From Clostridium sp. (GTDB lineage: Bacteria; Bacillota; Clostridia; Lachnospirales; Lachnospiraceae), in NCBI GenBank assembly GCA_023664605.1, contig JAMPFF010000001.1:337714-401713 (forward strand): DNA of 64,000 nt, written 5' to 3'. Positions 969 through 41,121 of the stretch are shown piece by piece (position 1 is the stretch's first letter; each line of letters starts with the position of its first letter). Both the position numbers and the translations under genes were made by a program. A model generated the notes under the pieces. It had not been told where the DNA came from and did no database searches. It saw nothing but the letters and a program-made list of their open reading frames with translations.

Positions 969-1023
969 TTCAGGAAGAAAGACAGCGCGTTGCAAACATA
1001 AAATATCAACCTGAAATAAAAAT

Positions 1024-1056
1024 GCTATTGAAAATAGCATAAAAAGTGAGTATAAT
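1024..1056 (+). promoter_or_regulatory. Sigma-A promoter of the surface-polymer operon with overlapping palindrome
   Basis: The -35 TTGAAA (1028-1033) and -10 TATAAT (1051-1056) are separated by 17 nt. A perfect palindrome GCTATTGAAAATAGC (1024-1038, extendable by AT on each side) covers the -35 box, the right place for a repressor operator. An almost identical 15-mer occurs at 15417-15431. The promoter lies inside the first codons of a longer possible ORF, which shows that the next gene starts at 1082. Confidence 0.85.
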
Positions 1057-1081
1057 ACTATTAAAAATGCAGGAGGACAGG

Positions 1082-1807
1082 ATGAATATAGGTGTTATTT
1101 TTGCAGGCGGAGTGGGAAAAAGAATGCATACAAAAGAATTGCCCAAACAATTTTTGCAAGTCTATGGTAAGCCTATTATTATACATACATTGCAGATATT
1201 TGATACGCATCCCGATATAGATGCGGTTGTAGTTTCCTGTGTAAAAGAATGGATTTCATACCTGAATGAATTGACAGAGCAGTATAATCTGCGGAAAGTC
1301 AGGACAATAGTAACTGGAGGCGCAACGGGGCAGGAATCCATCTACAATGCGCTGATGGCGGCCAAGGCGATTGCCTATGAAGAGGCGATTGTTTTGATAC
1401 ATGATGGCGTAAGGCCGTTTATTGACCACCATGTCATTGATGACAATATCAACAGTGTAAAAAAATATGGTTCCGCCATTACAACTTCTAAAGTGACAGA
1501 GACAATTTTGGTAGTGGAAGATAATAACCTGATTCGGGAAGTGCCGGACAGGAGCTGCTCCAGAATAGCGAAAGCGCCGCAGAGTTTCTGGCTGGAAGAT
1601 ATTTTAAAGGCGCATGAAAAGTCCATCAAAGAAAATAAATTAGATTTTATAGATTCCTGTACCATGATGCAGTATTATGGACATCAACTGTATTTGATAG
1701 ACGGACCGGTAGAAAATATCAAAGTTACGACTCCCGAGGATATCTTTACCATGCGTGCCGTACTGGAATCCAAAGAAATACTGAATATGCAGGGTAAATA
1801 TGATTAG
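1082..1807 (+). CDS. IspD/TarI-family cytidylyltransferase
   Basis: This 241-residue nucleotidyltransferase uses CTP to make a CDP-activated alcohol. The N-terminus carries the CTP-binding loop FAGGVGKRM (residues 7-15) followed by LPKQF; HDGVRPF (107-113) is the second family signature. The fold is shared by IspD (CDP-methylerythritol, isoprenoids) and TarI (CDP-ribitol, wall polymers). Being first in a teichoic-acid-type operon argues for a polymer role, with CDP-ribitol or a related alcohol as the likely product. The start at 1082 has AGGAGG five bases upstream; an in-frame ATG at 1046 lies before the -10 box and would not be transcribed. The stop overlaps the next start by 8 nt. Confidence 0.88.
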   Translation: MNIGVIFAGGVGKRMHTKELPKQFLQVYGKPIIIHTLQIFDTHPDIDAVVVSCVKEWISYLNELTEQYNLRKVRTIVTGGATGQESIYNALMAAKAIAYEEAIVLIHDGVRPFIDHHVIDDNINSVKKYGSAITTSKVTETILVVEDNNLIREVPDRSCSRIAKAPQSFWLEDILKAHEKSIKENKLDFIDSCTMMQYYGHQLYLIDGPVENIKVTTPEDIFTMRAVLESKEILNMQGKYD

Positions 1808-2927
1808 AAAAATAGAAAAAATGATAAGGGGATTTATCAAACATGCGCTTCTATGCCTGCCGATAAATCCTCGTATCATGATGTTTTATGCGCATGACAG
1901 GAGAGGGATATGCTGTAATCCCAAGTATATTATGTATGGGTTGATTAGGGAGCAAAATAGAAAATACCGTTTATATTGGGTAAGCGATTATCCCAAAACC
2001 GTACCAATAAGTAAAGATTACAGGGTGATAAAAAGACGCAGTTTCTTATATTATTATATCTTTGCCAGAACCAGAATATTTATAACCAACGATATGCTGG
2101 ATGAGCTTCTCATTAAGAAAAAAGGACAGATTATCATTAATACATGGCATGGTGGAGGCGCATTTAAAAAAGCGGGATATGACCTACCGGAAGCGGATGA
2201 GCGTAAAGAACTTTTGGATAAATGGTATGGAAGAACGGATTACATGATAGCGTCCAGCGAATATCTGGCGCATATATTCATGAAAGCGTTTCACTTACAG
2301 GAAAGCCGGATTTTAAAAACGGGAATGCCAAGATGCGATATATTTTTTAAAGACAATTCTTTCTATAGGGAAATAAGGGAACGCTACCGCTTAGACATAA
2401 AAGTAAAGATACTGCTATACGCGCCGACATACCGTTATGAAAAATATGAACTTTTGAACAGTGAGGAAATAGAAAAAGCGTTGGACGCGCTTAAGGATAA
2501 GACCGGAGAGGATTGGGTATGTCTGTTCAGGGCGCATCAGTTTGACAGGCAGAACAACTTAAGGGACTCGGATAAGCGGATATTAAACTGCAGCGATTAC
2601 ATAGACGTGCAGGAATTATTGTGTGCAACAGATTTATTGATATCGGATTATTCGTCGCTTTTATGGGAATTTTCATTACGCCATAAACCCGTTATCAGTT
2701 ATGCGAAATCCCCCAGACAGTATGCAGATAAAGAAAGACCGTTTTATATGCCATATGAAAAATGGCCCTATATAAAAGTGAAAAATATAGACGAATTGCT
2801 GCAAGAAATTACGCGTCTTGATGATAAAAAATATATAAGCGATATGGAAGAGTTTAATCGTTTTTTAGGAACTTATGAGGATGGGCAGTCAACGCAAAGG
2901 GTTCTTGCATTTTTGGAAAGCATTTGA
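1800..2927 (+). CDS. CDP-glycerol glycerophosphotransferase family protein (TagF/TagB-like)
   Basis: This protein of 375 residues is predicted to transfer glycerol- or ribitol-phosphate from a CDP donor to a membrane-anchored wall polymer. Family motifs are visible in order: NTWHGGG (114-120), TGMPRCD (174-180), LYAPTYR (206-212), RAHQ (244-247) and SDYSS (282-286). The histidines in WHG and RAH are the residues usually linked to catalysis and phosphate binding. It lacks a long N-terminal extension, so it is a single-domain member. Its start overlaps the cytidylyltransferase gene, which fits supply of the CDP donor by that neighbour. Whether it is a primer or a polymerase cannot be read from the sequence. 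Confidence 0.9.
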   Translation: MIRKIEKMIRGFIKHALLCLPINPRIMMFYAHDRRGICCNPKYIMYGLIREQNRKYRLYWVSDYPKTVPISKDYRVIKRRSFLYYYIFARTRIFITNDMLDELLIKKKGQIIINTWHGGGAFKKAGYDLPEADERKELLDKWYGRTDYMIASSEYLAHIFMKAFHLQESRILKTGMPRCDIFFKDNSFYREIRERYRLDIKVKILLYAPTYRYEKYELLNSEEIEKALDALKDKTGEDWVCLFRAHQFDRQNNLRDSDKRILNCSDYIDVQELLCATDLLISDYSSLLWEFSLRHKPVISYAKSPRQYADKERPFYMPYEKWPYIKVKNIDELLQEITRLDDKKYISDMEEFNRFLGTYEDGQSTQRVLAFLESI

Positions 2928-2958
2928 CGCAGGCTGTAGGAAAGGTAAGGTCGTTAGT

Positions 2959-4258
2959 ATGTACAGACAGGTATATGATGATGAGACGCAACAGATAAAA
3001 ATAGAAAAAGACGGATACCGGGGAAAGGTATTTATTGGATTGGCAGAGGGGAATGCCTTGCGCAAAATAGGCAGCCATTTTCGGACATCATTAAGGACAA
3101 TGATACAAAGCATGGATGAGTTTATGGGTACCGTGCTGAGGTTTATCTTATTTTCCGGGGTGGAAATTAATAGAAAAAGGATTGTATTTGCTACTTTTCA
3201 GAATACTTATACCTGTAATTGTAAGTATATTGCACAAGAGCTGCTAAAAAGAAAATTGGATTATGAAATCATATTTATTGTCGATAAGATATGTTTTGAC
3301 AATAAGGATTTATCTGCAGTTCCTGAAGGAGTAAAGCTGGTAAAGAGAGATTCTTTTGAAAGTTTTTTTGCATTGGCGACAGCACATTTTTGGGTGGATA
3401 ATGCGTTGAACTGCATCTGGAAAGCCATGCCTAAGAAACGCGGGCAGATATATCTGAATACCTGGCATGGTTCTTTGGGAATCAAAAAACTGGATGGAGA
3501 CGCTAAGTGGAAGAAAATAGCTGGAAAAGGAAATAAGTTAATTGACTTTTTTATTACTAACAGTGAGTTTGAAGAAGATGTATTTAAAAATTCTTTCTTT
3601 CCTGACGTAAACTGTTTAAGATATGGACATCCGAGAAACGATATGTTTTTCGATGCAGAAAGGATGCTGGAAATGAAATGGAAAGTCTATGCGCATTATG
3701 GGATAGATGAAAACGCCAAAACGGTATTATATGCACCAACATTCCGTGATGACAAAAATGATATAAACGCCATTAAAATAAACTGCAAAACGTTATTAAA
3801 TTCATTGAAAAGCGTATCGGGGGGGGGTAAAATGGATTGTTTTGGTGCGCTTTCATTTTCATAATAAAAATAACAGGAATGCCAAAAACCTGTTCGTTAA
3901 TAAGGATTCTGTCATAGATGTAAGCGAATATGCGGATATGCAGGAGTTAATGGCGGCGTCTGATATAGGGATAACGGATTATTCAAGCTGGATATTTGAT
4001 TTTATGCTGACAAGGCGCCCTGCGTTTATTTATGCAGAGGATATCAATAAATATATCCACTCCAGAGGTTTTTATTATTCCATACAGGAGACGCCGTTTT
4101 TGATAGCTGATAGTAATGAGGCGTTAAACCATAATATTATCAACTTTGATGAAAAAACTTATTTACGAAAGGTTGATTTATTTTTGAAAGAGAGAGGGTG
4201 TTATGAAACAGGAAATGCAAGCGAACGTTTAACGGAATTTATAATAGAAAATACATAA
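2959..4258 (+). pseudogene. CDP-glycerol glycerophosphotransferase family protein, frameshifted at a G9 tract (phase-OFF state)
   Basis: A second TagF-like transferase is split by a +1 shift at a run of nine Gs (3819-3827). As given, translation stops at 3862-3864 after 301 residues. Removing one G restores one continuous frame to 4258; the joined segment (SGGVKWIVLVRFHFHN) aligns with SLAVRFGG..KVLMRFHLHN in the paralogue at 4357. Upstream motifs include NTWHGSLG and YAPTFR; RFHFHN and TDYSSW lie beyond the tract. The start at 2959 has AAGG upstream; an earlier in-frame ATG at 2875 lies inside the preceding gene. Every other part looks intact, so this is more likely a switchable gene caught OFF, or a homopolymer sequencing error, than a decayed one. 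Confidence 0.85.
3819..3827 (+). repeat. Poly-G tract (G9), putative phase-variation switch
   Basis: Nine consecutive Gs followed by TAAAA sit within the glycerophosphotransferase frame. Eight Gs would give a full-length protein; ten Gs would bring the following TAA into frame; nine Gs give a truncated product. The tract is of a length prone to slipped-strand mispairing. Confidence 0.85.
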
Positions 4259-4356
4259 TCCATGGTCTGAATTTTCCTGAAGATAATCGCAGATATCATT
4301 AAGAAAGCATATAAACAATCATGCCATGGATATGTTGTGAGGGCAGGTAAGTAAAT

Positions 4357-5730
4357 ATGTGGAATGATATTGTATATGCGGTAATGGAAGGCAGGTTTCT
4401 ATGTACAACGGCAGATTATATCAAAAGAAAGATGAAGCTTATCTTTTTGACGCCTGTTTATAAAATGGATTATGCGATAGGCAAGATAATCAGGACCATC
4501 TGGTCCAATCATCAAAAGATAACAGATAATAAAATCGTATTAACGGCGGTCGATGGAAGGTATGACTGCAATCCAAAGTATATTGTGCAGGAAATCTTAA
4601 ACAGGGGTTTGCCGTATGAGTTGGTCTGGCTTGTAAAAGATGATAAGGAGATGGCTGGCGGAAATTTTCCCAAAGAGCTGACGCTTATAAAAAAGGGAAC
4701 ATTTGAAGCGTATCAGGCAATGGCGACGGCGCGGATTTGGATTGAAAATGAATTAAAATATTTAAAGCCATATGCGTTGTTGAAAAAAGAAGGGCAGGTC
4801 TACATACAGACATGGCATGGTTCGTTAGGCTTTAAGCGGATAGGGAAAGCGAATCAGCATAACCGGTCGGGAAAGAAGAAACGTTATATTAACAAAGTCG
4901 CTGAAAAATGCAACAGGGTGACGGACATCTGTATATCCAATAGCGTCTTTGAAACCAATGTTTTCAGAGAAGCATATTGGAACGATACGCCCATATTGGA
5001 ATATGGACATGCCAGAAATGACGTTCTTTTTTTGCATGATGCGGAACAATATAGGAAATTAAAAGAAGCCGTGCTGACGGATTTAGAAGTCATAAAAAGG
5101 CTGCCGGATGATTTTGAAAAACTGGCGGAGAATGAAAAAAATGCCATTATGAAAAAAAGAAACAAAGCCTTAAACACAAAATATATCCTATATGCACCGA
5201 CATATCGGATAGACGGTTCATTGGACTATTTCAATGTTGATTTTAAGCGGTTAGTGGATTCTTTGGCTGTGCGGTTTGGGGGGAACTGGAAAGTGCTTAT
5301 GCGGTTTCATCTGCACAATAGAAAAGCAGGGAAAAATATGATGGAGAGTTCCTATCTCGTCAATGCCACGGCGTATCCGGATATGCAGGAGTTATTATGT
5401 ATAGCCGATGCGGGATTGTCTGATTATTCCAGTTGGCTGTGCGATTATGCGCTGACTGCAAAACCCGCGTTTATTTATGCGGTGGATTTTGACTCCTATG
5501 GACATGACAGGGGATTTTATTATCCCTTGGAGACAACCCCGTTTCCGATATCACGCAATAATGACGAATTAAATGAAAGCATTATACATTTTGATGCGCA
5601 GAAATACGAGGAGAAGCGCAGGCTGTTTTTGGAGGATAAAGGCTGCATGGAAGACGGACATGCCGCAGGACGGATTGTAGACAAAATCGAACAGATTATT
5701 AATAATAAGGGCGTCTTTACCATGGAATAA
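4357..5730 (+). CDS. CDP-glycerol glycerophosphotransferase family protein (third paralogue)
   Basis: This 457-residue transferase is closely related to the frameshifted gene before it. It has TWHGSLG (152-158), YAPTYR, RFHLHN and SDYSSW motifs in the usual order. It has an insertion of about 40 residues, rich in Lys and Glu, between the second and third motifs. A G6 run (5278-5283) falls at the same codons as the G9 tract of the paralogue (RFGG) but is in frame. It probably adds polyol-phosphate units to the same polymer with another specificity. The 98-nt gap before it contains an 8-bp inverted repeat (4258-4265 with 4324-4331). No strong Shine-Dalgarno precedes the ATG, so 4387 is an alternative start. 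Confidence 0.88.
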   Translation: MWNDIVYAVMEGRFLCTTADYIKRKMKLIFLTPVYKMDYAIGKIIRTIWSNHQKITDNKIVLTAVDGRYDCNPKYIVQEILNRGLPYELVWLVKDDKEMAGGNFPKELTLIKKGTFEAYQAMATARIWIENELKYLKPYALLKKEGQVYIQTWHGSLGFKRIGKANQHNRSGKKKRYINKVAEKCNRVTDICISNSVFETNVFREAYWNDTPILEYGHARNDVLFLHDAEQYRKLKEAVLTDLEVIKRLPDDFEKLAENEKNAIMKKRNKALNTKYILYAPTYRIDGSLDYFNVDFKRLVDSLAVRFGGNWKVLMRFHLHNRKAGKNMMESSYLVNATAYPDMQELLCIADAGLSDYSSWLCDYALTAKPAFIYAVDFDSYGHDRGFYYPLETTPFPISRNNDELNESIIHFDAQKYEEKRRLFLEDKGCMEDGHAAGRIVDKIEQIINNKGVFTME

Positions 5731-5770
5731 AGCACTTTGACACACAGATACTGCAGACCGGGAGAAAGGC

Positions 5771-6886
5771 ATGGTTATTAAAATGAGAAAAGACTTGGAT
5801 GTATGGAAACGGGATTTAGAATTGCTTTGTCAACAGGAATATATACCATGGGAATTGTTGAAAAATAAAAATATTCTGGTTACTGGCGCAACAGGACTGA
5901 TTGGCTTCACCATGATTAAGGCATTGGCGTATGTAAATCGCACCAGGCAGTTAGATATAAAAATTTTGGCGCTGGTACGCTCTTTGGAGAGGGCGGGAAC
6001 ACAGTTTGCACAACTGCTGCAAGATACGGATGCACTCATTTTCATGGAAGGAACCGTGGAGCGTCTTCCGACAATAGCATATCCGGTTCATTATATCATA
6101 CATGGGGCAAGCCCGACTGCCAGCGAGTATTTTATCACAAAACCTGTGGAAACGATAAAGACGGCGGTTATCGGTACGATTAATTTATTGGAGCTTGCCA
6201 AAGAGAAGAAAGTGGAGAGTTTTGTCTATTTATCAAGCATGGAAATCTATGGTTCTCCCAGAACCGAGGATAAATTAACGGAACAGGATTTGGGTTATAT
6301 CAATCCCCTGATAGTAAGAAACTGCTATCCGGAGGCCAAAAGGCAGTGCGAATCATTATGCGCTTCTTATGCGGACGAGTTTGATGTCCGTTGCATGAGT
6401 ATACGGCTTGCACAGACCTTTGGCCCGGGAGTGGGCAGAGAGGATGTCCGGGTATTTGCGGAATTTGCCAGATGCGCGCAGGAGGGAAAGGATATCGTAC
6501 TGTTGACAGACGGGGGCAGCAAAAGGTGTTATCTTTATACATTTGACGCGGTCAGCGCAATACTGACCGTTCTTCTGAAAGGGGAAAAAGGAAAGGCGTA
6601 TAACGCCGCCAATTCGGAAACATATTGTTCAGTCTTAGAGATGGCGAACAAAGTGGCGCAGGAATTGGCGAAAGAAAAAATTGCCGTAAAATTTGCAGAC
6701 AATAAAGAAAGAAGTCTGAAATTTCCCCCCCCACATTTTTATAATCTGGATATCGATGAATTATTACAATTAGGTTGGAAACCAACCAAAAATTTACTGG
6801 AAATGTACCAAAACATGATGTGTGCAATGGAAGGAGAAAACGGAAAAAATGAATATAGACGTGAAGAGAGAAAAAAAGAACCATGA
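5771..6886 (+). CDS. NAD-dependent epimerase/dehydratase (extended SDR)
   Basis: This nucleotide-sugar enzyme has 371 residues. The Rossmann signature GATGLIG is at 39-45, the active-site serines at YLSSMEIYG (153-161) and the catalytic Tyr-Lys pair at Y186-P-E-A-K190. This pattern is typical of UDP-glucuronate decarboxylases, GDP-mannose and dTDP-glucose dehydratases and related epimerases; the exact substrate cannot be told. The start at 5771 has GGAGAAAGG upstream. It probably makes an unusual sugar for decoration of the polymer. A C8 run near the 3' end (6725-6732) encodes Pro-Pro-Pro; slippage there would replace about the last 50 residues. Confidence 0.88.
   Translation: MVIKMRKDLDVWKRDLELLCQQEYIPWELLKNKNILVTGATGLIGFTMIKALAYVNRTRQLDIKILALVRSLERAGTQFAQLLQDTDALIFMEGTVERLPTIAYPVHYIIHGASPTASEYFITKPVETIKTAVIGTINLLELAKEKKVESFVYLSSMEIYGSPRTEDKLTEQDLGYINPLIVRNCYPEAKRQCESLCASYADEFDVRCMSIRLAQTFGPGVGREDVRVFAEFARCAQEGKDIVLLTDGGSKRCYLYTFDAVSAILTVLLKGEKGKAYNAANSETYCSVLEMANKVAQELAKEKIAVKFADNKERSLKFPPPHFYNLDIDELLQLGWKPTKNLLEMYQNMMCAMEGENGKNEYRREERKKEP
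6725..6732 (+). repeat. Poly-C tract (C8) inside the SDR gene
   Basis: Eight Cs at codons for three prolines are in frame in this sequence. One base gained or lost would alter the C-terminus of the SDR protein and change how translation runs into the overlapping acyltransferase gene. Confidence 0.7.
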
Positions 6887-7931
6887 AATAAATATAGCAA
6901 AATTTATTTTTGCCGTCATCATAGTATTATTCCATTCCCAATACTTCTTCCCCAAAGAACTGCGCAGCAATGAAGTGATTCTTTTTTATAATGGCAGCAT
7001 TGCGGTAGAATTCTTTTTTATTGTATCGGGGTACTATTTTGCCAATTCCTGCCTGGGGGGGGGTAAAACACCCCAGGGCCTTATGGCGCATAAAATTAAA
7101 GCGTTCCTGCTGCCGGTATGGTGTTCCTGGATAATCGCCTTTGTCGGAACGCATATTGTACAAGGCAGACTTGGCGTAACGGAAATTGCCAAAGGCGTTA
7201 TGAAAGGCATATATGAACCGTTGTTGATTAGAAACGGTGGTTTTGTAGGAGAAGATTATAATGGCGTGGTATGGTACATTTCCGCGATGTTATTGACGAT
7301 GGGGCTGATTATCATACCGCTTTATAAATATAAGGAAAAATATATTTATATCATTGCGCCGGTTATCGCAGTTTTCTGCCTGGGATATCTGAGCCATAAA
7401 TATAAGTCATGCAGGAATGTCACGAAGTGGGACGGCATTATGTATAAGTGCCAGATTAGGGCGATAGCGGAAATCAATCTGGGGATTTTTCTATACGGAT
7501 TAAAAAAATGCCTTGATGGCATAGAATTGACGAAATTAGGGAAAGGGCTTCTCACGGTTTTGGAGGGCGGCATTTATCTGTCCGTGATATTGTTTATGCA
7601 TTTTAGGCATATATCCGGGATGGATTTTGCAGTCATCATTTTAATCGCCATTGCGGTTTTATGCAGCATGACGCAGAAAACGTATCTGGCGGATTTGGCC
7701 TGCCATATACCATCTGTGGCGGATTTTTTAGGCAAATACAGTTTCTATCTGTATTTGAATCATGTAGTATGCCGGGTGGCAGTAGAAGAAATATTTACCG
7801 AGAGGACATACGCCTTTAAACTGATACCGTATATCTGTTCCGCGCTTATGCTTGCCTTTATCGTCATGCGCCTTGTGGATGTTCTGACAAAGCAGGGTCC
7901 GCGGGTGCGCAGACTTTTCATAAAAACATAA
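6849..7931 (+). CDS. Acyltransferase 3 family membrane protein (O-acetyltransferase)
   Basis: This integral membrane protein of 360 residues has about ten hydrophobic segments. The N-terminus has the acyltransferase-3 pattern: a first helix with FHSQYF (the conserved His), then a second with VEFFFIVSGYYF. Such proteins O-acetylate sugars or polyols of surface polymers, moving the acetyl group from cytoplasmic acetyl-CoA across the membrane. AAGGAG lies 12 nt before ATG 6849; a GTG at 6822 is less likely. It overlaps the SDR gene by 38 nt. A G9 tract after the second helix (7055-7063) is in frame here, so O-acetylation is predicted to be ON and switchable. Confidence 0.88.
   Translation: MNIDVKREKKNHEINIAKFIFAVIIVLFHSQYFFPKELRSNEVILFYNGSIAVEFFFIVSGYYFANSCLGGGKTPQGLMAHKIKAFLLPVWCSWIIAFVGTHIVQGRLGVTEIAKGVMKGIYEPLLIRNGGFVGEDYNGVVWYISAMLLTMGLIIIPLYKYKEKYIYIIAPVIAVFCLGYLSHKYKSCRNVTKWDGIMYKCQIRAIAEINLGIFLYGLKKCLDGIELTKLGKGLLTVLEGGIYLSVILFMHFRHISGMDFAVIILIAIAVLCSMTQKTYLADLACHIPSVADFLGKYSFYLYLNHVVCRVAVEEIFTERTYAFKLIPYICSALMLAFIVMRLVDVLTKQGPRVRRLFIKT
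7055..7063 (+). repeat. Poly-G tract (G9) inside the acyltransferase gene, in-frame state
   Basis: Nine Gs encode Gly-Gly-Gly and are followed by TAAAAC, the same junction as at 3819. With ten Gs the TAA becomes an immediate stop codon; with eight Gs the frame shifts. Confidence 0.8.
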
Positions 7932-7956
7932 ATTATTTTATCAAAGGAGCGACGTT

Positions 7957-9045
7957 ATGTTTAATTTCGCGATTCTCTTCCTGCCGCCCATATTGGCATG
8001 GGCGATACATATTTTTTTGCATCGGGATACCATGGACGGTAAGCGGAAAGTGGTCTTTGGGTTATTCTACTTTGTCCTGGTCAATGCTTTTACCTATGCG
8101 GTCTCCAGTATACGCGGCGTCAAGGGGTTACGATTCCAGGGGATGACTATGACCTATAAGTTTAAATATCTGTGTCTGGGCTGTGCATGGGCAGTCATCT
8201 TTCCTTTTTTTGTCGGCCTTTTTAGCGGGAGGAGAGAAAACGGACAGGGCGTTGGGGATGTCATGGGTAAGTTTGTGCATGACATTAAAAATTATACGCA
8301 TTATGCGTTCTGGTCGGCTAAGGCTGACCTGAACGCCGAAGTGTCCAATGCGTATCTGGACTGGCTTTGGTGGTTGATAGAGCCGGTTTGTATGATGTTG
8401 ATTTATGCGGTCATGTTTGGCATGGTATTTAAGGCGTCGGAACCGTATTTTCCCGTTTTTATTTTTATCGGGCTGACAATGTGGAATTTCTTTTCCCGAT
8501 GCGTGTCCAGCAGTGTGAATCTGATTCGCGCTAACCGCTCTATCGTTACCAAGATATATATGCCGAAGTTTATTCTGCTGTTTTCCCGAATGCTGGTGTG
8601 CGGTTTTAAGATGATGGTTTCTTTTGGCGTTGTGGCGGTTATGATGATTATATTCAAGGTGCGGTTCACAATCAATATTTTGGGCATGATACCGGTTTTG
8701 GCAGTGCTTTTTTTGTTTACTTTCGGATTGTGCAATATTTTTATGCACTATGGTGTCTATGTGAACGATTTGTCCTATATCGTGGGAATTGTGCTGCGGA
8801 TGCTGATGTATCTGACAGGGGTGTTTTATGACGTTGGAAAGCGGATTCCCGCGCCGTTTGGAGAATTAATGGAGCGGTATAATCCGATTGCCTTTCTGGT
8901 TTCTTCCATGCGCGGCGCGCTTTTGTACGGGCAGACGCCCGACTGGATGATGCTTGGCATGTGGACGTTACTATCGGTATTGCTGATTATCATAGGCATA
9001 TCTACGATTTACCGCAATGAAAATGCGTATGTAAAAATGATATAA
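7957..9045 (+). CDS. ABC-2 type polysaccharide/teichoic acid exporter permease (TagG-like) with N-terminal membrane extension
   Basis: The 362 residues fall into two parts. Residues 1-95 hold about three hydrophobic helices not found in ordinary TagG/Wzm permeases. Residues 110-362 form the usual six-helix ABC-2 permease, beginning with a cytoplasmic amphipathic segment (NYTHYAFWSAKADLNAEVSN), then YLDWLWWLIEPV, and including the RANRSIVTKIYMPKF loop. Together with the ATPase that starts 12 nt downstream it should flip a lipid-linked polymer or glycan across the membrane. AAGGAG sits 8 nt before the ATG. The N-terminal extension has no evident partner motif. Confidence 0.88.
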   Translation: MFNFAILFLPPILAWAIHIFLHRDTMDGKRKVVFGLFYFVLVNAFTYAVSSIRGVKGLRFQGMTMTYKFKYLCLGCAWAVIFPFFVGLFSGRRENGQGVGDVMGKFVHDIKNYTHYAFWSAKADLNAEVSNAYLDWLWWLIEPVCMMLIYAVMFGMVFKASEPYFPVFIFIGLTMWNFFSRCVSSSVNLIRANRSIVTKIYMPKFILLFSRMLVCGFKMMVSFGVVAVMMIIFKVRFTINILGMIPVLAVLFLFTFGLCNIFMHYGVYVNDLSYIVGIVLRMLMYLTGVFYDVGKRIPAPFGELMERYNPIAFLVSSMRGALLYGQTPDWMMLGMWTLLSVLLIIIGISTIYRNENAYVKMI

Positions 9046-9056
9046 GGAGCAGAAGA

Positions 9057-9788
9057 ATGTCGGAGAAAAGCAAAGCTGTTGAATTAAAAGATGTTTGTAT
9101 TAATTATCGTATCTTGAATACCACCAGTGTGCAGAAAAGCTTATTTCATAAAAAGCAGAGGGAAATCATATTTGAGGCGGTCAAACATGTTTCTTTTAGT
9201 GTGGACGAGGGTGGAATTCTGGGGATTATTGGCAGAAACGGAAGTGGGAAATCGACGTTATTACGCTCTATTGCAGGCGTGTTTTCGCCCAATGCGGGAG
9301 AGATAGATTTGAAAGGGCATTCCGTATCGTTAATGGCTTTAGGCGTCGGATTTAAAAATACGTTGACAGGCAGGGAGAATATTATGCTTTCAGGGATGCT
9401 TTTAGGCTTTACTGAGAGGCAGATTAGAGAAAAGCTGGATGAAATTATTGCCTTCGCCGAACTCGGAGAGTTTATTGACCGCCCGGTGCGCACCTATTCC
9501 AGCGGTATGCACTCGAAACTCGCCTTTGCTATCACGGCGATGCTGGAGACGGATATCATGTTGGTGGATGAGGTGTTAAGCGTTGGGGATGAACGATTCA
9601 AGAAGAAAAGCCTGGAGAAGATGAAGTCGTTGATTTTGGACAAGAGACGGACGGTTATTATTGTCTCGCACAACAAAGATACACTGCAGGAACTTTGCGA
9701 CCGGGTGTTATGGATCCATGATGGCGAAATGAAAGAAATCGGCAGGCCGGACGAGGTACTGGCGCATTATGTGGAGTTTATGAAATGA
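9057..9788 (+). CDS. ABC exporter ATP-binding protein (TagH/Wzt-like)
   Basis: This ATPase has 243 residues with Walker A GRNGSGKST (59-67), signature SSGMHSK (148-154), Walker B ending LVDE (169-172) and the H-loop IIVSHN. The SSGM form of the signature is characteristic of TagH and Wzt polysaccharide exporters, as opposed to importers. It ends after the nucleotide-binding domain and lacks the C-terminal glycan-binding domain of Wzt, so export is probably not coupled to recognition of a terminal residue by this subunit. It pairs with the permease just upstream and overlaps the next glycosyltransferase (ATGA). Confidence 0.92.
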   Translation: MSEKSKAVELKDVCINYRILNTTSVQKSLFHKKQREIIFEAVKHVSFSVDEGGILGIIGRNGSGKSTLLRSIAGVFSPNAGEIDLKGHSVSLMALGVGFKNTLTGRENIMLSGMLLGFTERQIREKLDEIIAFAELGEFIDRPVRTYSSGMHSKLAFAITAMLETDIMLVDEVLSVGDERFKKKSLEKMKSLILDKRRTVIIVSHNKDTLQELCDRVLWIHDGEMKEIGRPDEVLAHYVEFMK

Positions 9789-10861
9789 GAGATACAGAAC
9801 TTGCCCTTACATTTATCATTCCTGCCCATAATGCAGAGAAAACGCTTGGCAGGACGCTTGAGAGCATCCTGTGGCAGACGGATGACAGATACCGCATTAT
9901 CATAGTGGACGATGGCTCTATGGACAGGACGGCGGAGATTGGACATAGTTATGCCGGGAAATATCCTAAGAAGATACGCTATATTTACCAGAAGAAGAAA
10001 CAGTGCGGCGGCGCCAGGAACACGGGGCTGCGGATGACAGAAACGGAATATGTGTCTTTTCTGGACAGCGATGACTGGCTGATGTCGGACTATGTGGAGC
10101 AGATATTGGGAGAGATTGAAAAGGCGCTGCAGCCTCCGGAAATGGTTATGACGCTTCCGGTCATCTATCATGAACAGAGCCATATCGTCAGAGACTGGTA
10201 CGATAAAAAACTGTTTGAACAGGTGTTTTCCCGGAGTGGAGCGATAGTCGAGCCGCAGCGGGAGAAATGTTTGTATCAGTTTGAAGTGAATGCCTGTCGT
10301 AAAGTCCTTAGCATGGAATTTGTACGCAGGACAAAGTTTGCCTTTCGAGAAGAAGTCAAATGGGAAGATGTTTATCCGCATTTTTATCTGCTGTCAGAGT
10401 GCCGTAGCTGTATGGGCGTTTATGTCGGTTTCTATTACCGCATCGGAGAAAGCACGCAGACAACAGCCGCTACAGGGAGTGAACGTTTGGATATTCTTCC
10501 TGTTTTTGAGGATTTACTGCATTTTATGGAGCGGCAGGATAGGGATGAGCTGGTTTTTCCCATCATGCGCATCATACTGCGCTTTTCCTTTTGGTGTATC
10601 CGCATGGCGGATATAGATACGAGAAAAACGCTGGTGTATAAGATACAGCGCTTTTTTAGGAGAATACCGAAAAAATATATTCGTATTTTGGCAAGGGAGA
10701 GCATCCAGCAGTATGCGCTAAAGGACGCCTTACAGTATATGTTATTGTCCATGGCGCTGCGTTCTCGGATAGGAAGTGTCGTATTTTACGATTATCTGTT
10801 TCAGGAAGTTTGTGAAAAAATAATCAAGAAAGTATTGAAAGCGGAGAATAAAGTGGCATGA
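9785..10861 (+). CDS. Family 2 glycosyltransferase
   Basis: This 358-residue protein has a GT-A fold: ALTFIIPAHNAEKTLGRTLE at the start, then IIVDDGSMD and a DXD motif in SFLDSDDWL. The C-terminal 150 residues are basic and rich in Phe, Trp and Tyr, suggesting peripheral membrane contact. There is no transmembrane helix. It starts by a 4-nt ATGA overlap with the ABC ATPase, so exporter and glycosyltransferases are translated together. Acceptor and sugar cannot be deduced. Confidence 0.9.
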   Translation: MRDTELALTFIIPAHNAEKTLGRTLESILWQTDDRYRIIIVDDGSMDRTAEIGHSYAGKYPKKIRYIYQKKKQCGGARNTGLRMTETEYVSFLDSDDWLMSDYVEQILGEIEKALQPPEMVMTLPVIYHEQSHIVRDWYDKKLFEQVFSRSGAIVEPQREKCLYQFEVNACRKVLSMEFVRRTKFAFREEVKWEDVYPHFYLLSECRSCMGVYVGFYYRIGESTQTTAATGSERLDILPVFEDLLHFMERQDRDELVFPIMRIILRFSFWCIRMADIDTRKTLVYKIQRFFRRIPKKYIRILARESIQQYALKDALQYMLLSMALRSRIGSVVFYDYLFQEVCEKIIKKVLKAENKVA

Positions 10862-12198
10862 GACAGTTGCAAAGTTATCTTGACAGGCAAAGCCGGATAG
10901 GGAATGTGCTTATTTTGGGAGCCGCGGTGCATATGCAGAGGGCTTCCAGCGTTACCCTGACGCAGGAAAAAGAGCCGGAAAAGCTGCGCAGTATCATAAA
11001 AACGGCGCATATAGATTCCATTCTGTTCATGGAGGGATGGACGGAAACCATGAAACAGATTGCAGATATTCCCTTACGGTATCTGATTGGACAGACTGGA
11101 GAGGAAGAGGATTATTTCGGGCTGTGGGAGCGGTACCGTATGCAGGCGGAACATATCTATATTCTCAGAAATCGCACAGGCAGGCTGATGCGGGATATGG
11201 ACAGATATGAAATATTGGAGTGGGAGCGGACAGATGCTCCGCTGGAACTATCAATCATCATTCCCGTATATAATGTATGTGAGTATTTGGCGCAGTGTCT
11301 GGAATCTCTGACAGAGTGGAAAGCGCCCTATGTGGAATATCTTTTTGTGGACGATGGTTCTACGGACGGTTCGGCGAAGCTGCTTGAGGATTATGCGGCA
11401 AAGGATGGACGTATCAGGCATCTACGCAAAAAAAACGGCGGCTGTGCGTCCGCGAGGAATCTCGGTCTGCGCGAGGCCAAAGGGAGATACATCGGGTTTG
11501 TGGACGGGGATGATTTTACAGCCCCGGAGATGTTTAAGAAACTATTGAAACGCGCCCTTATGGGCGGCTATGAGCTTGCGTACTGTGGTTATCAGGAATA
11601 TGATGAGGCGACGAAAAGCGCAAGGGAAGTCAGAAACGATTGTATGGCGCAGCCCTATTTGAGCGGAACTTACAGGGCGGATCAGGTGCAGAAGCTCATG
11701 ATAAAAACACGGGTCGCTATCTGGCGCTGCATTTATAAAAAAGAACTGCTTGAAAGGGAGAAGATTGCTTTCCATGAATCGCTTCCGCGTTTTGACGACC
11801 TTCCTTTTAAGATAGAAAGCGGGTTCCATGCCAAAAGCGCGGTATGTGTGCCGGAGTATCTGTATTACTACCGGATGGGAAGACAGGGGCAGGATGTGTC
11901 CTGTACCGATGAAAGATTGTTTGTACATTTTGAGATTTTCCATATTCTGGACGAGTGGGTAACTGCCATGAAAGACCGGCGGCTGCTCGATTATCTGCAG
12001 GTTATAAAATTACATACGCATGGGTATGCGCTGGGTAAGATTGACAGGAAATATTATCGGAAATATTTAAAAAAGGCAGGCACGCAGATGGATGTAACGG
12101 CGAAAACCATGCGGACGCTTGTTTTAATGTTTTTCTATGGCGGAAAGAGCAATCTGTGGTGGTATTTGAAAAGCAGAAAGGTGTGGTTGAACGGATGA
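10858..12198 (+). CDS. Family 2 glycosyltransferase with N-terminal accessory domain
   Basis: This is a 446-residue protein. Residues 130-250 form the GT-A domain: LSIIIPVYNVCEYLAQCLES, FVDDGSTDGS, GGCASARNLGL and the DXD motif in FVDGDDF. The first 125 residues form a separate Rossmann-like domain of unknown function (NVLILGAAVHMQ, DSILFMEGW, RYLIGQTG) without a recognisable motif. The start overlaps the previous gene by 4 nt (ATGA). The gene continues the three-gene glycosyltransferase block and probably adds side chains or the linkage unit of the polymer. Confidence 0.88.
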   Translation: MRQLQSYLDRQSRIGNVLILGAAVHMQRASSVTLTQEKEPEKLRSIIKTAHIDSILFMEGWTETMKQIADIPLRYLIGQTGEEEDYFGLWERYRMQAEHIYILRNRTGRLMRDMDRYEILEWERTDAPLELSIIIPVYNVCEYLAQCLESLTEWKAPYVEYLFVDDGSTDGSAKLLEDYAAKDGRIRHLRKKNGGCASARNLGLREAKGRYIGFVDGDDFTAPEMFKKLLKRALMGGYELAYCGYQEYDEATKSAREVRNDCMAQPYLSGTYRADQVQKLMIKTRVAIWRCIYKKELLEREKIAFHESLPRFDDLPFKIESGFHAKSAVCVPEYLYYYRMGRQGQDVSCTDERLFVHFEIFHILDEWVTAMKDRRLLDYLQVIKLHTHGYALGKIDRKYYRKYLKKAGTQMDVTAKTMRTLVLMFFYGGKSNLWWYLKSRKVWLNG

Positions 12199-13274
12199 AT
12201 CCGAAACTGTCCATTGTCATTCCTATTTATAATGTCGTTTCTTATCTGGAGCAATGCCTGGAGAGTGTGGCGCGCCAGCTTGATGTGAGCGGAGAGGATA
12301 AGATAGAGATAATCCTGGTGGATGACGGCTCCACGGACGGTTCCGGTCAGATAGCGGAGCGTTTTGCAGACGGCCGCTTTTATGTGCAGCTAATCCGCCA
12401 GAAAAACAGCGGAGTGGCTGCGGCGAGAAATCGGGGTATGGAAAAGGCGCGGGGAGAATGGTTGTATTTTATGGACGCGGACGATTGGCTGTCAGGGGAT
12501 GGTATAAGGCTGCTGTGCGAAGCGCTGCATAAATGCAGAGAGTCTGATATCATTCTTTTGGACGCTTATCAGGAATGCGATGGAATAAGCCTGCCGTGGG
12601 AACATTTCCATTCTGCTTGTGAATGGAGGGAAAAAACGGAGATTAACAGGCTGCAGAGGGCGGTTTTATACTATCCTATGGATTTTCCCGGGATGAAAGC
12701 GCCGCTTGCGGCTCCGTGGGATAAGCTCTACCGCAGGGATTTTTTGCTGCGGCATGGAATAGCGTTTTGTGAAAACCTGGCTGTTTTGGATGATATGGTA
12801 TTTAATATGGAAGCTTTTGGCAAGGCACGGATAATTTCTTATGAGACGAGCAAGGTCTATCATTACCGCCGCGTTGCGGACTCGATTACGAACGGTTATA
12901 AGGCGGACCGTGTGGCGCAAGATGGCAGGGTTTGGCGTTACATTGAAGACTACCGTGAGAGGGCGCAGGCAGAGGGCTTGTGGAGCCATGAGGAAAAGGC
13001 GTCTTTTCTACAGGCCTATTATTGCAGAATAATACGCTCTTTTACAATCTGTGGCAGATTGCATTTTTTTCATCAAGAAAATACAAAATCACATCAGGAA
13101 AAACAACGCTATGTAAAACAGGTATTGTGCAGCAATCCTTATCGAACGGCGTTTAAAGAAGTCAGGCTGCGCCATCTGGAATGGAGGCTTAAGATAGTTA
13201 CGCTGCTTGTCAGAAGCGGGCTGTATAGGGGATTATATCTGCTTTATCTGGCGCAGTATCATTTAGCAGGGTAA
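12195..13274 (+). CDS. Family 2 glycosyltransferase
   Basis: The 359 residues start with KLSIVIPIYNVVSYLEQCLE, followed by ILVDDGSTDGSG, GVAAARNRGME and the DXD motif YFMDADDWL, a canonical inverting GT-A set. The ATG at 12195 gives the same ATGA overlap as the two preceding junctions; a GTG at 12156 is possible but lacks a ribosome binding site. The last gene of the polymer operon, it ends tail to tail with the opposite-strand glycosyltransferase, overlapping it by 12 nt with no clear terminator. Confidence 0.9.
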   Translation: MNPKLSIVIPIYNVVSYLEQCLESVARQLDVSGEDKIEIILVDDGSTDGSGQIAERFADGRFYVQLIRQKNSGVAAARNRGMEKARGEWLYFMDADDWLSGDGIRLLCEALHKCRESDIILLDAYQECDGISLPWEHFHSACEWREKTEINRLQRAVLYYPMDFPGMKAPLAAPWDKLYRRDFLLRHGIAFCENLAVLDDMVFNMEAFGKARIISYETSKVYHYRRVADSITNGYKADRVAQDGRVWRYIEDYRERAQAEGLWSHEEKASFLQAYYCRIIRSFTICGRLHFFHQENTKSHQEKQRYVKQVLCSNPYRTAFKEVRLRHLEWRLKIVTLLVRSGLYRGLYLLYLAQYHLAG

Positions 13275-14249
13275 ATCCCCGAAGAAACGCAGGATAGCGT
13301 CTGAAATGGCCTTGGAACTGCCGGACGGCACAAAAACCGTATTTTTATCGGCGCTAAAAAGCTCATGGTTAGCAGGCGTGTCGCCAAGCAGCATAGGTTT
13401 TTCCATGGCACGGTAGATATAGGCCTTGCCGGGGATGGTACGTTTGGCTTTTTCGATATCACCGGCAAAATGCCCCGCAATGCAAAGGTCCGAAAAAGCG
13501 ATGTGACGCGCCAGTTCTTCCTGCATGAGCCAGTCGCGCAGGAAGAGATTGGGAATATCCTGCACCTGGTGTTTTAAGGAAGCCGGAAGGGGGCCGATAA
13601 AATAAAAACAGTAGTCCGGACGCTCTTTTAAAAGACAGAAAGCGTCCAAAACCAGTTCATAGCCTTGTAGGGGAAGCATACTGCCGAAAAACAAAATCAC
13701 TTTCTTTTTTTTCACCGCCTTTGGCTTGTCAACTTGCATCGGGTAATATATGGAAGGGTCGGCTTCCAGATAGAGCAGGTGAAGCTTTGACCTGTCTGCG
13801 TGAAATTCTTCTGCAAAATATTCGCCATGCTGTCTGGTATCACAGATAATAGCGTCCGCATGTTTTATGGTACAGGCGTCCAGCAGATAGAGCAGGCGAC
13901 CCAACGCTCCGTGTGGATTGACACAGCGTTTATCATAGCAAAAGGTATCATAGAGAGAAATAAAAAAGTCAATGATTCTGTATTTTTTCCAAAATTTCCA
14001 TCTAAAAAAGGGAAGAATAAGCTGTGGCGCAAATCCAATCAACACGGCGTCAAAGCGTCTGACGGAAGTGAAGAAGAGCTGTCGGTATACCTGGATGAGC
14101 CGAAAAAAATAGGTCTTTTTATCGGAGCCGATAATGCGATAGTTTTCGGCATATTGCTTTAGCAGGCGGATTTCCTGTGTGTTTCTGATATAATCAAGTC
14201 TTTTCGTCGTAATGAACAGAACATTTTTATTTTTTATGTATGCTATCAT
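13263..14249 (-). CDS. Glycosyltransferase, GT4/GT1-like (GT-B fold)
   Basis: This 328-residue protein is shorter than most GT4 enzymes. The N-terminal half is basic and resembles a truncated acceptor domain (NVLFITTKRLDYIRNTQEIR). The C-terminal half has ILFFGSMLPLQGYELVLDAF, YFIGPLP, NLFLRDWLMQEEL and a sugar-nucleotide site around PGKAYIYRAMEKPMLLGDTPA. GAGGAAAA lies upstream of the ATG on the minus strand. It converges with the polymer operon and may have its own promoter; two AATAGC half-sites occur at 14283-14296. The substrate is unknown. Confidence 0.8.
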   Translation of the reverse strand: MIAYIKNKNVLFITTKRLDYIRNTQEIRLLKQYAENYRIIGSDKKTYFFRLIQVYRQLFFTSVRRFDAVLIGFAPQLILPFFRWKFWKKYRIIDFFISLYDTFCYDKRCVNPHGALGRLLYLLDACTIKHADAIICDTRQHGEYFAEEFHADRSKLHLLYLEADPSIYYPMQVDKPKAVKKKKVILFFGSMLPLQGYELVLDAFCLLKERPDYCFYFIGPLPASLKHQVQDIPNLFLRDWLMQEELARHIAFSDLCIAGHFAGDIEKAKRTIPGKAYIYRAMEKPMLLGDTPANHELFSADKNTVFVPSGSSKAISDAILRFFGDLPC

Positions 14250-14314
14250 CAGTATATTTTCCTCGTTATAAAATATAGTAATAATAGCATAATAGCAAAT
14301 AAAAACTATTTTGA

Positions 14315-14494
14315 CTAGCGAAAATGGGATATTTTTTCAGAAAGAAAACAAAGAATATCCTTACGGTCGCGTTCATCCAGCTTTCTGTAATATTGGAGCA
14401 GGAGTTTTTCATCCGCTGATAAGAGTCCATATGCAGCCCCGCGCTCTGCGCGGAGCGTTGTCTTATGTAGTTTGGAATGTTTTCGTTTGTGCAT
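14315..14494 (-). CDS. 59-residue protein matching the C-terminus of the neighbouring XRE regulator
   Basis: This minus-strand frame of 59 codons starts MHKRKHSKL and ends SEKISHFR. Residues 26-52 (SADEKLLLQYYRKLDERDRK) resemble the tail of the XRE regulator at 14846 (EHNEKLLLYYYQLLDQRDQE), which shares the pattern EKLLLxYYxxLDxRDxxDxLxFL. It has no helix-turn-helix. A TAATAT box lies a few bases before the ATG and there is no ribosome binding site, so it is either leaderless or the leftover end of a regulator. It could act as a dominant-negative multimerisation piece of the XRE family, but that is speculation. Confidence 0.5.
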   Translation of the reverse strand: MHKRKHSKLHKTTLRAERGAAYGLLSADEKLLLQYYRKLDERDRKDILCFLSEKISHFR

Positions 14495-14526
14495 AATTAT
14501 ATTATCCGATACATTTTTCTTTTTGT

Positions 14527-14547
14527 AATTAAGGTAATGCCTTAATT
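14527..14547. promoter_or_regulatory. Palindromic operator candidate in a divergent intergenic region
   Basis: A perfect 8-bp inverted repeat AATTAAGG-(5 nt)-CCTTAATT lies between the minus-strand 59-codon gene and the plus-strand HTH gene. Its symmetry, short spacer and position fit a dimeric HTH regulator site. Confidence 0.5.
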
Positions 14548-14600
14548 TATAGTAGTATTTTTTGGTATATTACTAAGAAATGGATGTAGGAGGGTGAAAA

Positions 14601-14840
14601 ATGGTATATCCGGTGGTAGATATGCAGAGAACGGGAGAACATATAAGGGATTTAAGCAGGGAAAAGAATACATCAGTAAGGGAAGTCAAGGAGTATCTTG
14701 CGCTTGCTTCGGTACAGTCAATATATGATTGGTTTCATTCCAGGACGCTGCCTTCTGTGGACCATCTGCTTGCGTTGGGATATCTTTGGAATATACATAT
14801 AGAAGATATTCTGGTTATAAATACAATAGAACGGCCGTAA
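14601..14840 (+). CDS. Small XRE-like helix-turn-helix protein
   Basis: This 79-residue protein is made almost entirely of a helix-turn-helix domain (GEHIRDLSREKNTSVREVKE, then SVQSIYDWFHSRTLPSVDHLL, then IHIEDILV). It resembles the short HTH proteins of Lachnospiraceae in which the recognition helix reads QSIYxW. AGGAGGG precedes the ATG by a few bases. It converges on the XRE regulator at 14846, and the last 10 bases of the two genes contain a weak inverted repeat. It probably controls itself or neighbours through the palindrome at 14527. Confidence 0.8.
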   Translation: MVYPVVDMQRTGEHIRDLSREKNTSVREVKEYLALASVQSIYDWFHSRTLPSVDHLLALGYLWNIHIEDILVINTIERP

Positions 14841-14845
14841 TCGAA

Positions 14846-15307
14846 TTACGACCGCTCCTGCCTGCGGTTTTCATATTTTACTTTCAAAAACGTCAGTACG
14901 TCTTCCTGGTCGCGCTGGTCTAACAACTGATAGTAGTAGAGAAGTAATTTCTCGTTGTGTTCAAGGGGTTTGAACTTTTTGCTTTGTTCCGGACGGTTGA
15001 TATAGGACATGAATTCGCTTAAATTGGCCGCTGGTTCCTGTGAAAGTAAAGACGTTGGTTTTTTTACAAAATCCGAGTTGATATTATAAGTGACAAGGAA
15101 TTCCATAAAATTTTCAACGGGAATGCCGTAGAGCGCCGCAAGATTGTACAGAGAATTGACGGGCGGCGTGATACGTCCGGTTTCATAGTGGGAGTATGTC
15201 TGTCTTGTGATATTCAGATGGGAGGCAACGAACTCCTGCTGATAACCATGCGATTTTCTAAGTTCTTTTAGGTATTGCGCCAGTCGAAGGTTGGTGGTTT
15301 TATCCAT
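14846..15307 (-). CDS. XRE-family transcriptional regulator
   Basis: This regulator has 153 residues. Residues 8-62 are a Cro/CI-type HTH (YLKELRKSHGYQQEFVASHL, NITRQTYSHYETGRITPPV, SLYNLAALYGIPVENFMEF). A linker follows, then a charged C-terminus (EHNEKLLLYYYQLLDQRDQE) that probably mediates oligomerisation. AAAGGAG is 8 nt before the ATG at 15307; an ATG 30 nt upstream lacks a site. It is divergent from the secreted-protein gene, whose promoter region carries the 15-bp palindrome, and a GCTATT half-site also precedes this gene. It is therefore a candidate for the regulator that binds that palindrome. Confidence 0.88.
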   Translation of the reverse strand: MDKTTNLRLAQYLKELRKSHGYQQEFVASHLNITRQTYSHYETGRITPPVNSLYNLAALYGIPVENFMEFLVTYNINSDFVKKPTSLLSQEPAANLSEFMSYINRPEQSKKFKPLEHNEKLLLYYYQLLDQRDQEDVLTFLKVKYENRRQERS

Positions 15308-15378
15308 GTTATCAGCTCCTTTCTGCAAAATATTCAATCAATAGCTGTTTCTATATAAAATTTTAGTAAAAATAGTAC

Positions 15379-15431
15379 TTGAAATTATATTAATAATAGA
15401 GTATCATATGATAAAAGCTATTAAAAATAGC
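15379..15431 (+). promoter_or_regulatory. Promoter of the secreted-protein gene with downstream palindrome
   Basis: The -35 TTGAAA (15379-15384) and -10 TATCAT (15402-15407) are 17 nt apart. The palindrome GCTATTAAAAATAGC (15417-15431) lies at or just after the expected transcription start, an operator position. It differs by a single central base from the palindrome at 1024-1038. Confidence 0.75.
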
Positions 15432-15455
15432 TAAAACAATAGAGGAGGAAAAACA

Positions 15456-16136
15456 ATGAAAGCAAATATTGTTAAACGAGTACTGGTTGGTACGTTGTCA
15501 GCCGTTCTCTTGGTTGCATCTTCTACAAGCGTACTTGCATCGAGCGCTGGCTCGAAAGCTATCAGTGAAAGCAGCAAGAGCAGTAGTAGCAGTGAAGTTG
15601 TCAGCAGCAGTAATTCTGGCAGCGGCGGAGGTTCTTCATCCGAATCCGCTCCGGCTCCTGTAACAAGTTCAGTGGCAGGTGTTAAAACATCTTTGTCGGG
15701 TGTTTATCTTGCAACGAATGTAAACGGCACCGCTATTACGACAGGCCTTAAGACTATTTCTGATGGTTACGTGCTTGCTAATGGTGAGACGCCTTATGCA
15801 AGAATCTACAACATGAGCGCTAAGAAGAGTCCTGCTGCACAGGCATGCATCAATGACGCAGCGGCAGCGATGGGCGCAACGGTTGGTCCGGCAATCAATG
15901 TGGAAATCGGCAAGAAAAAGGGCGGAAAGTTCAGCCTGCTTCCTGCAGACGGAGCAACAATCAGCTTAAAGGTAGGCGTACCGAAATCTTTTGCACAGGA
16001 AGGAAAGACGTTTGCCATTGTTGCTGTTCGTCCGGGCGGAGCTGTATCGATTTTGACAGATACTGATACAAACCCTGACACAGTTACTTTTGACACAACA
16101 GCAGGCCAGGCAGCGTACGCGCTGATTAAATATTGA
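15456..16136 (+). CDS. Secreted Ser-rich protein of unknown function
   Basis: The 226 residues start with a Sec signal peptide (a basic n-region, then VLVGTLSAVLLVASSTSVLA, cut near residue 29). A low-complexity Ser/Gly linker of about 40 residues follows, then a compact domain of about 150 residues with no cysteine active site (GKKKGGKFSLLPADGATISL, FAIVAVRPGG). I do not recognise the family. The Ser-rich linker suggests passage through the wall or glycosylation. The promoter is strong, AGAGGAGG precedes the ATG and a good terminator follows at once, so the protein may be abundant. The palindrome at its start site links it to the polymer operon. Confidence 0.8.
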   Translation: MKANIVKRVLVGTLSAVLLVASSTSVLASSAGSKAISESSKSSSSSEVVSSSNSGSGGGSSSESAPAPVTSSVAGVKTSLSGVYLATNVNGTAITTGLKTISDGYVLANGETPYARIYNMSAKKSPAAQACINDAAAAMGATVGPAINVEIGKKKGGKFSLLPADGATISLKVGVPKSFAQEGKTFAIVAVRPGGAVSILTDTDTNPDTVTFDTTAGQAAYALIKY

Positions 16137-16153
16137 GTAAGGCGCATGATAGG

Positions 16154-17932: not shown

Positions 17933-17956
17933 AAAACCCCAAGAAAAGAGTATAAT
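17929..17956 (+). promoter_or_regulatory. Sigma-A promoter of the MCP gene
   Basis: TTGAAA (17929-17934) and TATAAT (17951-17956) are separated by 16 nt, overlapping the end of the GT-C-like gene. A 9-bp inverted repeat (CTTTTCTTG/CAAGAAAAG) spans the -35 box and spacer. Confidence 0.7.
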
Positions 17957-17992
17957 AAGATATATGAATGTTGCACGAAGGAGGCATAAAAA

Positions 17993-41113: not shown

Positions 41114-41121
41114 GGGGGGGG
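41114..41121 (+). repeat. Poly-G tract (G8) at the ribosome binding site of the HTH regulator
   Basis: Eight Gs followed by TAAA end nine bases before the TTG start codon and are the only plausible Shine-Dalgarno sequence. A change in tract length would alter ribosome binding or spacing. It shares the GTAAA junction with the tracts at 3819 and 7055. Confidence 0.65.

Follow-up and report, generated by a model that had tools for sequence, protein, structure and literature searches.

Introduction

Slipped-strand switching at poly-G tracts is an already known mechanism, and several systems resemble the locus analysed below. In the Campylobacter phasome, G/C tracts of 8-11 are numerous, lie for the most part in reading frames and show a narrow length peak at 9 and 10 (PMC6321876). 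The same source cites tracts of at least eight as shown to switch in C. jejuni, and the PhasomeIt cut-off is seven or more G/C. Our tract set has the same character, with its peak at 8 in the genome under study and at 10 in a third species of the genus (G038). Campylobacter, however, is Gram-negative and has been well studied in multiple strains, whereas our comparison covers a related pair of species and a more distant third from a single genus, from genomes only. In a survey of 99 genomes, poly-G tracts of 7-8 were over-represented in 9 (PMC2831843).

Homopolymeric tracts in surface-polymer genes have been linked to phage resistance. Loss of C. jejuni 06875, a CDP-glycerol glycerophosphotransferase, gave resistance to phage CP39 (PMC8949473). 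This enzyme of the capsule locus is named after the same family as the gene described here, and one resistant isolate had lost a T in a T8 tract. Unlike our tract, that of 06875 is poly-T, and most mutations are reported there to be scattered over the gene, outside homopolymeric tracts (PMC8949473). Vibrio cholerae O1 likewise carries homonucleotide tracts of about eight bases in the surface-polysaccharide genes wbeL and manA, from which phage-resistant variants arise (PMC3441752). Those tracts are poly-A, in a Gram-negative host, and reversal has been shown for manA.

Two systems come from lineages closer in cell type. Bifidobacterium breve, a Gram-positive gut commensal, switches a sortase pilus through a frame split at a G tract (PMC9187656). 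There the target is a pilin gene and two lengths, G11 and G12, coexist in culture, whereas here a single consensus genome is at hand. Gardnerella, of a Gram-positive-type lineage, has abundant variable homopolymers, with many tracts of at least eight near surface genes, but these lie mostly upstream of genes, and colony variants were studied (PMC11287997). Among the matches listed in the open-access literature (title and start of abstract; subscription papers and preprints not covered), none concerned poly-G switching in Lachnospiraceae, and none poly-G switching of TagF in a Gram-positive gut bacterium. Within this literature, the lineage and the Gram-positive-type target appear to be new.

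A surface-polymer cluster with a split TagF-like gene

The window, by which we mean the whole 64,000-nucleotide stretch analysed, comes from a draft genome of 3.585 Mb in 78 contigs. It was compared with a sister species (G037), a MAG with the record label 'Bacillus sp.' that was among the 76 other genomes searched in the genus. Profile searches delimit a surface-polymer cluster at window positions 1085-9788, with all genes on the + strand. The first gene of the shared cluster is of the D-ribitol-5-phosphate cytidylyltransferase type (TarI/IspD family, 1085..1807; NCBIfam NF001183, 180.9 bits, cut-off 166; PF01128), and by annotation the cluster makes CDP-ribitol. Three adjacent TagF-like genes (PF04464) follow, of which the first (1800..2927; E 3.7e-75) is open in both genomes and the third (4357..5730; E 1.1e-65) bears six in-frame Gs at aligned Gly-Gly codons. 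Further along are an epimerase/dehydratase gene (5771..6886; PF01370), whose in-frame C8 at 6725-6732 is also C8 in the sister, and an acyltransferase-3 gene (6846..7931; PF01757). The cluster closes with the permease and ATPase genes of an ABC exporter (7957..9788; PF01061, PF00005). The best NCBIfam match of the ATPase is to teichoic acid export, under the cut-off of that model. Two family 2 glycosyltransferases lie 3' of the cluster at 10858-13274.

The middle TagF-like gene is split in two. Its upstream piece (2959..3864, stop included) covers PF04464 profile positions 6-224 of 367 with 122 bits, and its downstream piece (3842..4258), in the other frame, covers positions 233-366 with 100 bits, both above the cut-off of 22.1. 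The downstream piece itself lacks a convincing start, and the TTG at 3842 is only an output of the ORF lister. Exactly where the two frames cross, at 3819-3827, stand nine Gs. Profile coverage in two frames confirms the initial annotation, made from the sequence alone, which had the second of three TagF-like genes breaking frame at this tract. Nine Gs also lie above the PhasomeIt cut-off for a switching homopolymer inside a reading frame. A second G9 tract, at 7055-7063, is in frame within the acyltransferase gene and of equal length in the sister. The two tracts are 3.2 kb apart, one in a transferase and one in an acyltransferase, which could allow chain building to switch independently of acylation.

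The tract sits at Gly-Gly codons common to most homologues. Across 57 aligned homologues (of 59 sequences given), comprising 55 loci of other genomes plus both paralogues in the window, no G run at this site exceeds six, the length found in the paralogue at 4357, where the aligned Gly-Gly codons agree with the G6 that the initial annotation had placed at the same codons. Each search contributed its best 30 loci, from matches in 143 of 299 family genomes and 40 of 77 genomes of the genus. The sister protein was aligned to S. epidermidis TagF (3L7I), whose H444 and H584 we take to be the catalytic histidines. Equivalents of both align in the open sister protein, the first upstream of the tract and the second just after it. 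In the genome under study they are divided between the pieces, the downstream one bearing the H584 equivalent together with a TDYSS stretch. By this alignment, the OFF product retains the H444 equivalent and loses that of H584. Against the TarF, TarB and TarL equivalogs of NCBIfam, the sister protein scores below the curated cut-off (best 134.7 bits, cut-off 550).

An internal promoter at the tract was considered and rejected. A TTGAAA-17-TAAAAT arrangement spans the tract, and just one among 5576 shorter G-runs of the window satisfies the rule that picks it out. Promoter-like sites in the region, however, are no more numerous than in shuffles (21 against 18.8), and the hexamers around the tract are weaker in the sister than in this genome; the arrangement is a curiosity.

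The sister orthologue is open and both pieces are constrained

A DNA search of the genus found matches in 11 of 77 genomes (own included), at full length in the own genome and the sister only. The sister is collinear with window 1001-18422 and 94.6% identical over 17.4 kb. The 17,421 aligned bases hold 915 substitutions and five indels, of which two are intergenic, two are of three bases and one breaks the frame of a coding sequence, at the G tract. At that position the sister carries eight Gs, and its orthologue is a single open gene of 432 codons. The prediction that eight Gs would restore one intact frame is thereby borne out, and the G8 variant that was to be sought in relatives is present in this species. 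Unrelated frameshifts elsewhere in the gene, which would have spoken against the proposal, are absent relative to the sister, the tract indel being the only frame-breaking one in coding sequence.

Each piece was compared with the sister in its own frame. The dN/dS is 0.096 for the upstream piece (35 synonymous and 16 nonsynonymous changes) and 0.065 for the downstream piece (10 and 3), both inside the range of 0 to 0.22 found for neighbouring genes. Purifying selection on both pieces implies that the break is recent or transient. The genes for MutS and MutL are open in the own genome and in the sister; switching may therefore be slow.

Similarity to the sister contig begins abruptly at window position 1001, and the 20 kb upstream of the window have no match to that contig. 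This abrupt start suggests a recombination boundary of the cluster.

G/C runs are bimodal in length and differ between species

Lengths of G/C runs in the own genome are bimodal, with 12 runs of length 7 (derived from pattern counts), 30 of length 8, 14 of length 9 and one of length 10, giving 45 of at least eight. The sister has 10, 23, 11 and 1 at lengths 7 to 10, and G038 has 2, 6, 5, 23 and 5 at lengths 7 to 11, with its peak at 10. Were lengths 7 and 8 equally likely, the excess of the longer would have a P of 0.004 in the own genome and 0.018 in the sister. Within the window, runs of lengths 3 to 9 number 735, 154, 18, 4, 0, 2 and 2. The four of at least eight compare with 0.16 expected by geometric extrapolation (P ~3e-5). 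The rise after the trough indicates that this is not simple decay. A dinucleotide shuffle of the window gave no excess of G7 words (10 observed; mean 8.3, sd 4.1). Among 100 sampled family genomes, with a median of 1.6 G8 words per Mb, the own genome ranks fourth at 17.0 and G038 first at 33.9. The next two genomes in this ranking belong to other genera, and the trait is therefore not confined to this one.

Tract by tract, 44 of the 45 own tracts were examined, the one on contig C77 (classed as 'other') standing outside the comparison. Half of them (22) had a counterpart in the available sister loci: 12 are equal in length, 8 differ by one or two and 2 are interrupted. Four of the eight length-variable tracts split a gene here that is open in the sister, namely the TagF-like gene, two methyltransferase-type genes and one for a solute-binding lipoprotein, which loses its signal-peptide stretch. 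Of the remaining four, one alters the C-terminus of an AraC-type regulator, one alters the start region of a Pfam-less protein, and two lie outside long reading frames. A fifth split gene, found from the sister side, is of RgpF type and broken here; the sister copy is open to the contig end, 96 bases beyond the tract. The sister's own G9-split gene belongs to no known family. Over 19 other tract loci compared with the sister (49,561 columns), 9 indels fall at tracts and 145 elsewhere, many of the latter resembling gap clutter in poorly aligned stretches; the five indels of the 17,421-base alignment are the clean count.

Runs of eight occur in genes encoding three family 2 glycosyltransferases, a GT61, a pyruvyl transferase, a hexapeptide protein and a DegT aminotransferase. 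They are also found in genes for a further TagF-like protein, an IspD-type protein, an FkbM methyltransferase, two LRR proteins and three solute-binding proteins, as well as two AraC regulators, a response regulator, an antiporter, an ABC ATPase and two iron-sulphur enzymes. Enrichment of surface genes among the tract genes is an impression, and G runs in the glycine-rich linkers after lipoprotein cysteines may be there for other reasons. At 41114-41121, a G8 that is nine long in the sister lies immediately 5' of what looks, by eye, like a short frame for a helix-turn-helix regulator. Elsewhere (L026, G000:C11 470290-473297), a YidC-type and TagF-like fusion with a G8, interrupted in the sister, adjoins a methyltransferase-type gene split at a G9.

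The break could be a recent ordinary loss, in which a single slippage disabled a dispensable transferase in this strain with no selected switching. Long runs slip in every genome, two TagF-like paralogues are still open, and reversal may be rare with mismatch repair genes present. Plain loss does not, however, predict that tracts of at least eight should exceed those of length seven, as they do in three species, and several further genes are split at tracts only. We therefore regard ordinary loss as unlikely.

Long runs at frame junctions

A junction was defined, by one fixed rule for all sets, as a point where one frame ends and another begins. Six of the 15 own runs of at least nine lie at junctions, compared with 1 of 29 own runs of eight, and with 34 of 2000 random positions in the window and 74 of 2000 in the own loci (2-4%). 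The six genes are the split TagF-like gene, a CotH-type gene, a DUF4956 gene and three of methyltransferase type, one of them under the Pfam cut-off. In the sister, 1 of 12 runs of at least nine and 0 of 22 runs of eight are at junctions. Of the 33 tracts of G038, 4 are at junctions and 9 in frame, while 13 are classed as other and 7 lie near an end. All own (15) and sister (12) runs of at least nine were classed; tracts less than 300 bases from a locus end were dropped, after which the classed set held 22 of the 23 runs of eight in the sister and 16 of the 17 A/T runs in the own genome. The 'in frame' class includes open frames on the opposite strand.

These counts bear on the possibility that assembly or sequencing gave the G run a wrong length. 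Such runs are difficult to sequence, and Illumina trouble at G tracts has been described (PMC9187656). Against such an error, A/T runs of at least nine fall at junctions in only 1 of 16 cases in the own genome; in the window, 1 of 49 A/T runs of 7-8 does so, at the boundary of two genes. G runs of eight are similarly rare there, and the G9 at 7055 is in frame with the same length in the sister. From the A/T-run counts and this shared in-frame G9, error as the sole cause is judged quite improbable. The length difference between relatives, the constraint on both pieces, the bimodal runs and the other tract-split genes likewise argue against a lone sequencing error.

Programmed frameshifting, by which one protein would still be made through ribosome or polymerase slippage at the tract, is barely credible: long homopolymers can promote slippage, but the sister gene is open without a shift, the split arrangement is not conserved, and no G run beyond six occurs at the site in the aligned homologues.

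Discussion

Comparison of the sequences indicates that the TagF-like locus is probably a slipped-strand (poly-G) contingency locus in the OFF state, one of a genome-wide set of G8-G10 switches. The contingency locus proposed by the initial annotation gains support from the length difference between relatives, the constraint, the bimodal runs and the other split genes; with one genome per species, this support comes from differences between species, and phase variation proper, with several tract lengths in one clone and reversible switching that alters the phenotype, stays a proposal. The related genomes suggest that G-runs act as random on/off switches for many genes, often surface genes. Several points weigh against the contingency reading. 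The run is short for a fast switch, MutS and MutL are open, the dinucleotide shuffle of the window gives no excess of G7 words, and 12 of the 22 matched tracts are equal in length. The junction excess is also weaker in the sister (1/12) and in G038 (4/33).

In a contingency locus of this kind, the tract would have grown at the conserved Gly-Gly codons of the transferase, and replication slippage would add or drop one G. Gain or loss of a G would shift the frame, and comparison of the two genomes captures an open and a closed state. In the OFF state, translation is predicted to end before the half with the H584 equivalent and the TDYSS stretch. The transferase would then be lost and the phosphopolymer presumably altered. 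The tract set is probably kept because mixed surfaces would help against phages or host factors.

A broader reading, which we consider evenly poised, is that a whole genus of Firmicutes-type bacteria, to judge by gene content perhaps gut Lachnospiraceae, has a poly-G phasome. Dozens of G8-G11 tracts would frame-switch wall-polymer, glycan-modifying, lipoprotein and other genes, and at least one species would also tune the promoters of a secreted-protein family through tracts in -35/-10 spacers, despite mismatch repair genes. If true, this lineage hedges its surface as Campylobacter and Neisseria do, its apparent pseudogenes are switchable genes, and a single consensus genome misstates the surface chemistry of a population. 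The consequences would extend from phage predation and immune recognition to strain typing and metagenome assembly. It also raises the question of how long G tracts stay mutable and are maintained in cells carrying MutS and MutL.

The candidate promoter tracts come mainly from G038. Five of its 33 tracts (L190, L191, L198, L223 and L234), and one in the sister (L158), are inside promoter-like spacers. These spacers, with tracts of G9-G11, are 16-19 long and lie between -35-like (5-6 of 6) and -10-like (4-5 of 6) hexamers, an arrangement that looks like promoter-spacer switching. By eye, L190, L191 and L198 precede proteins with similar signal-peptide starts.

Tracts are also found at the contig ends of G038. 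On contigs C49, C68, C73, C81 and C84 (L218, L229, L230, L231 and L234), five ends lie 3-21 bases from a G/C tract of ten or eleven. The assembly may break there owing to variable tract lengths or badly read G runs.
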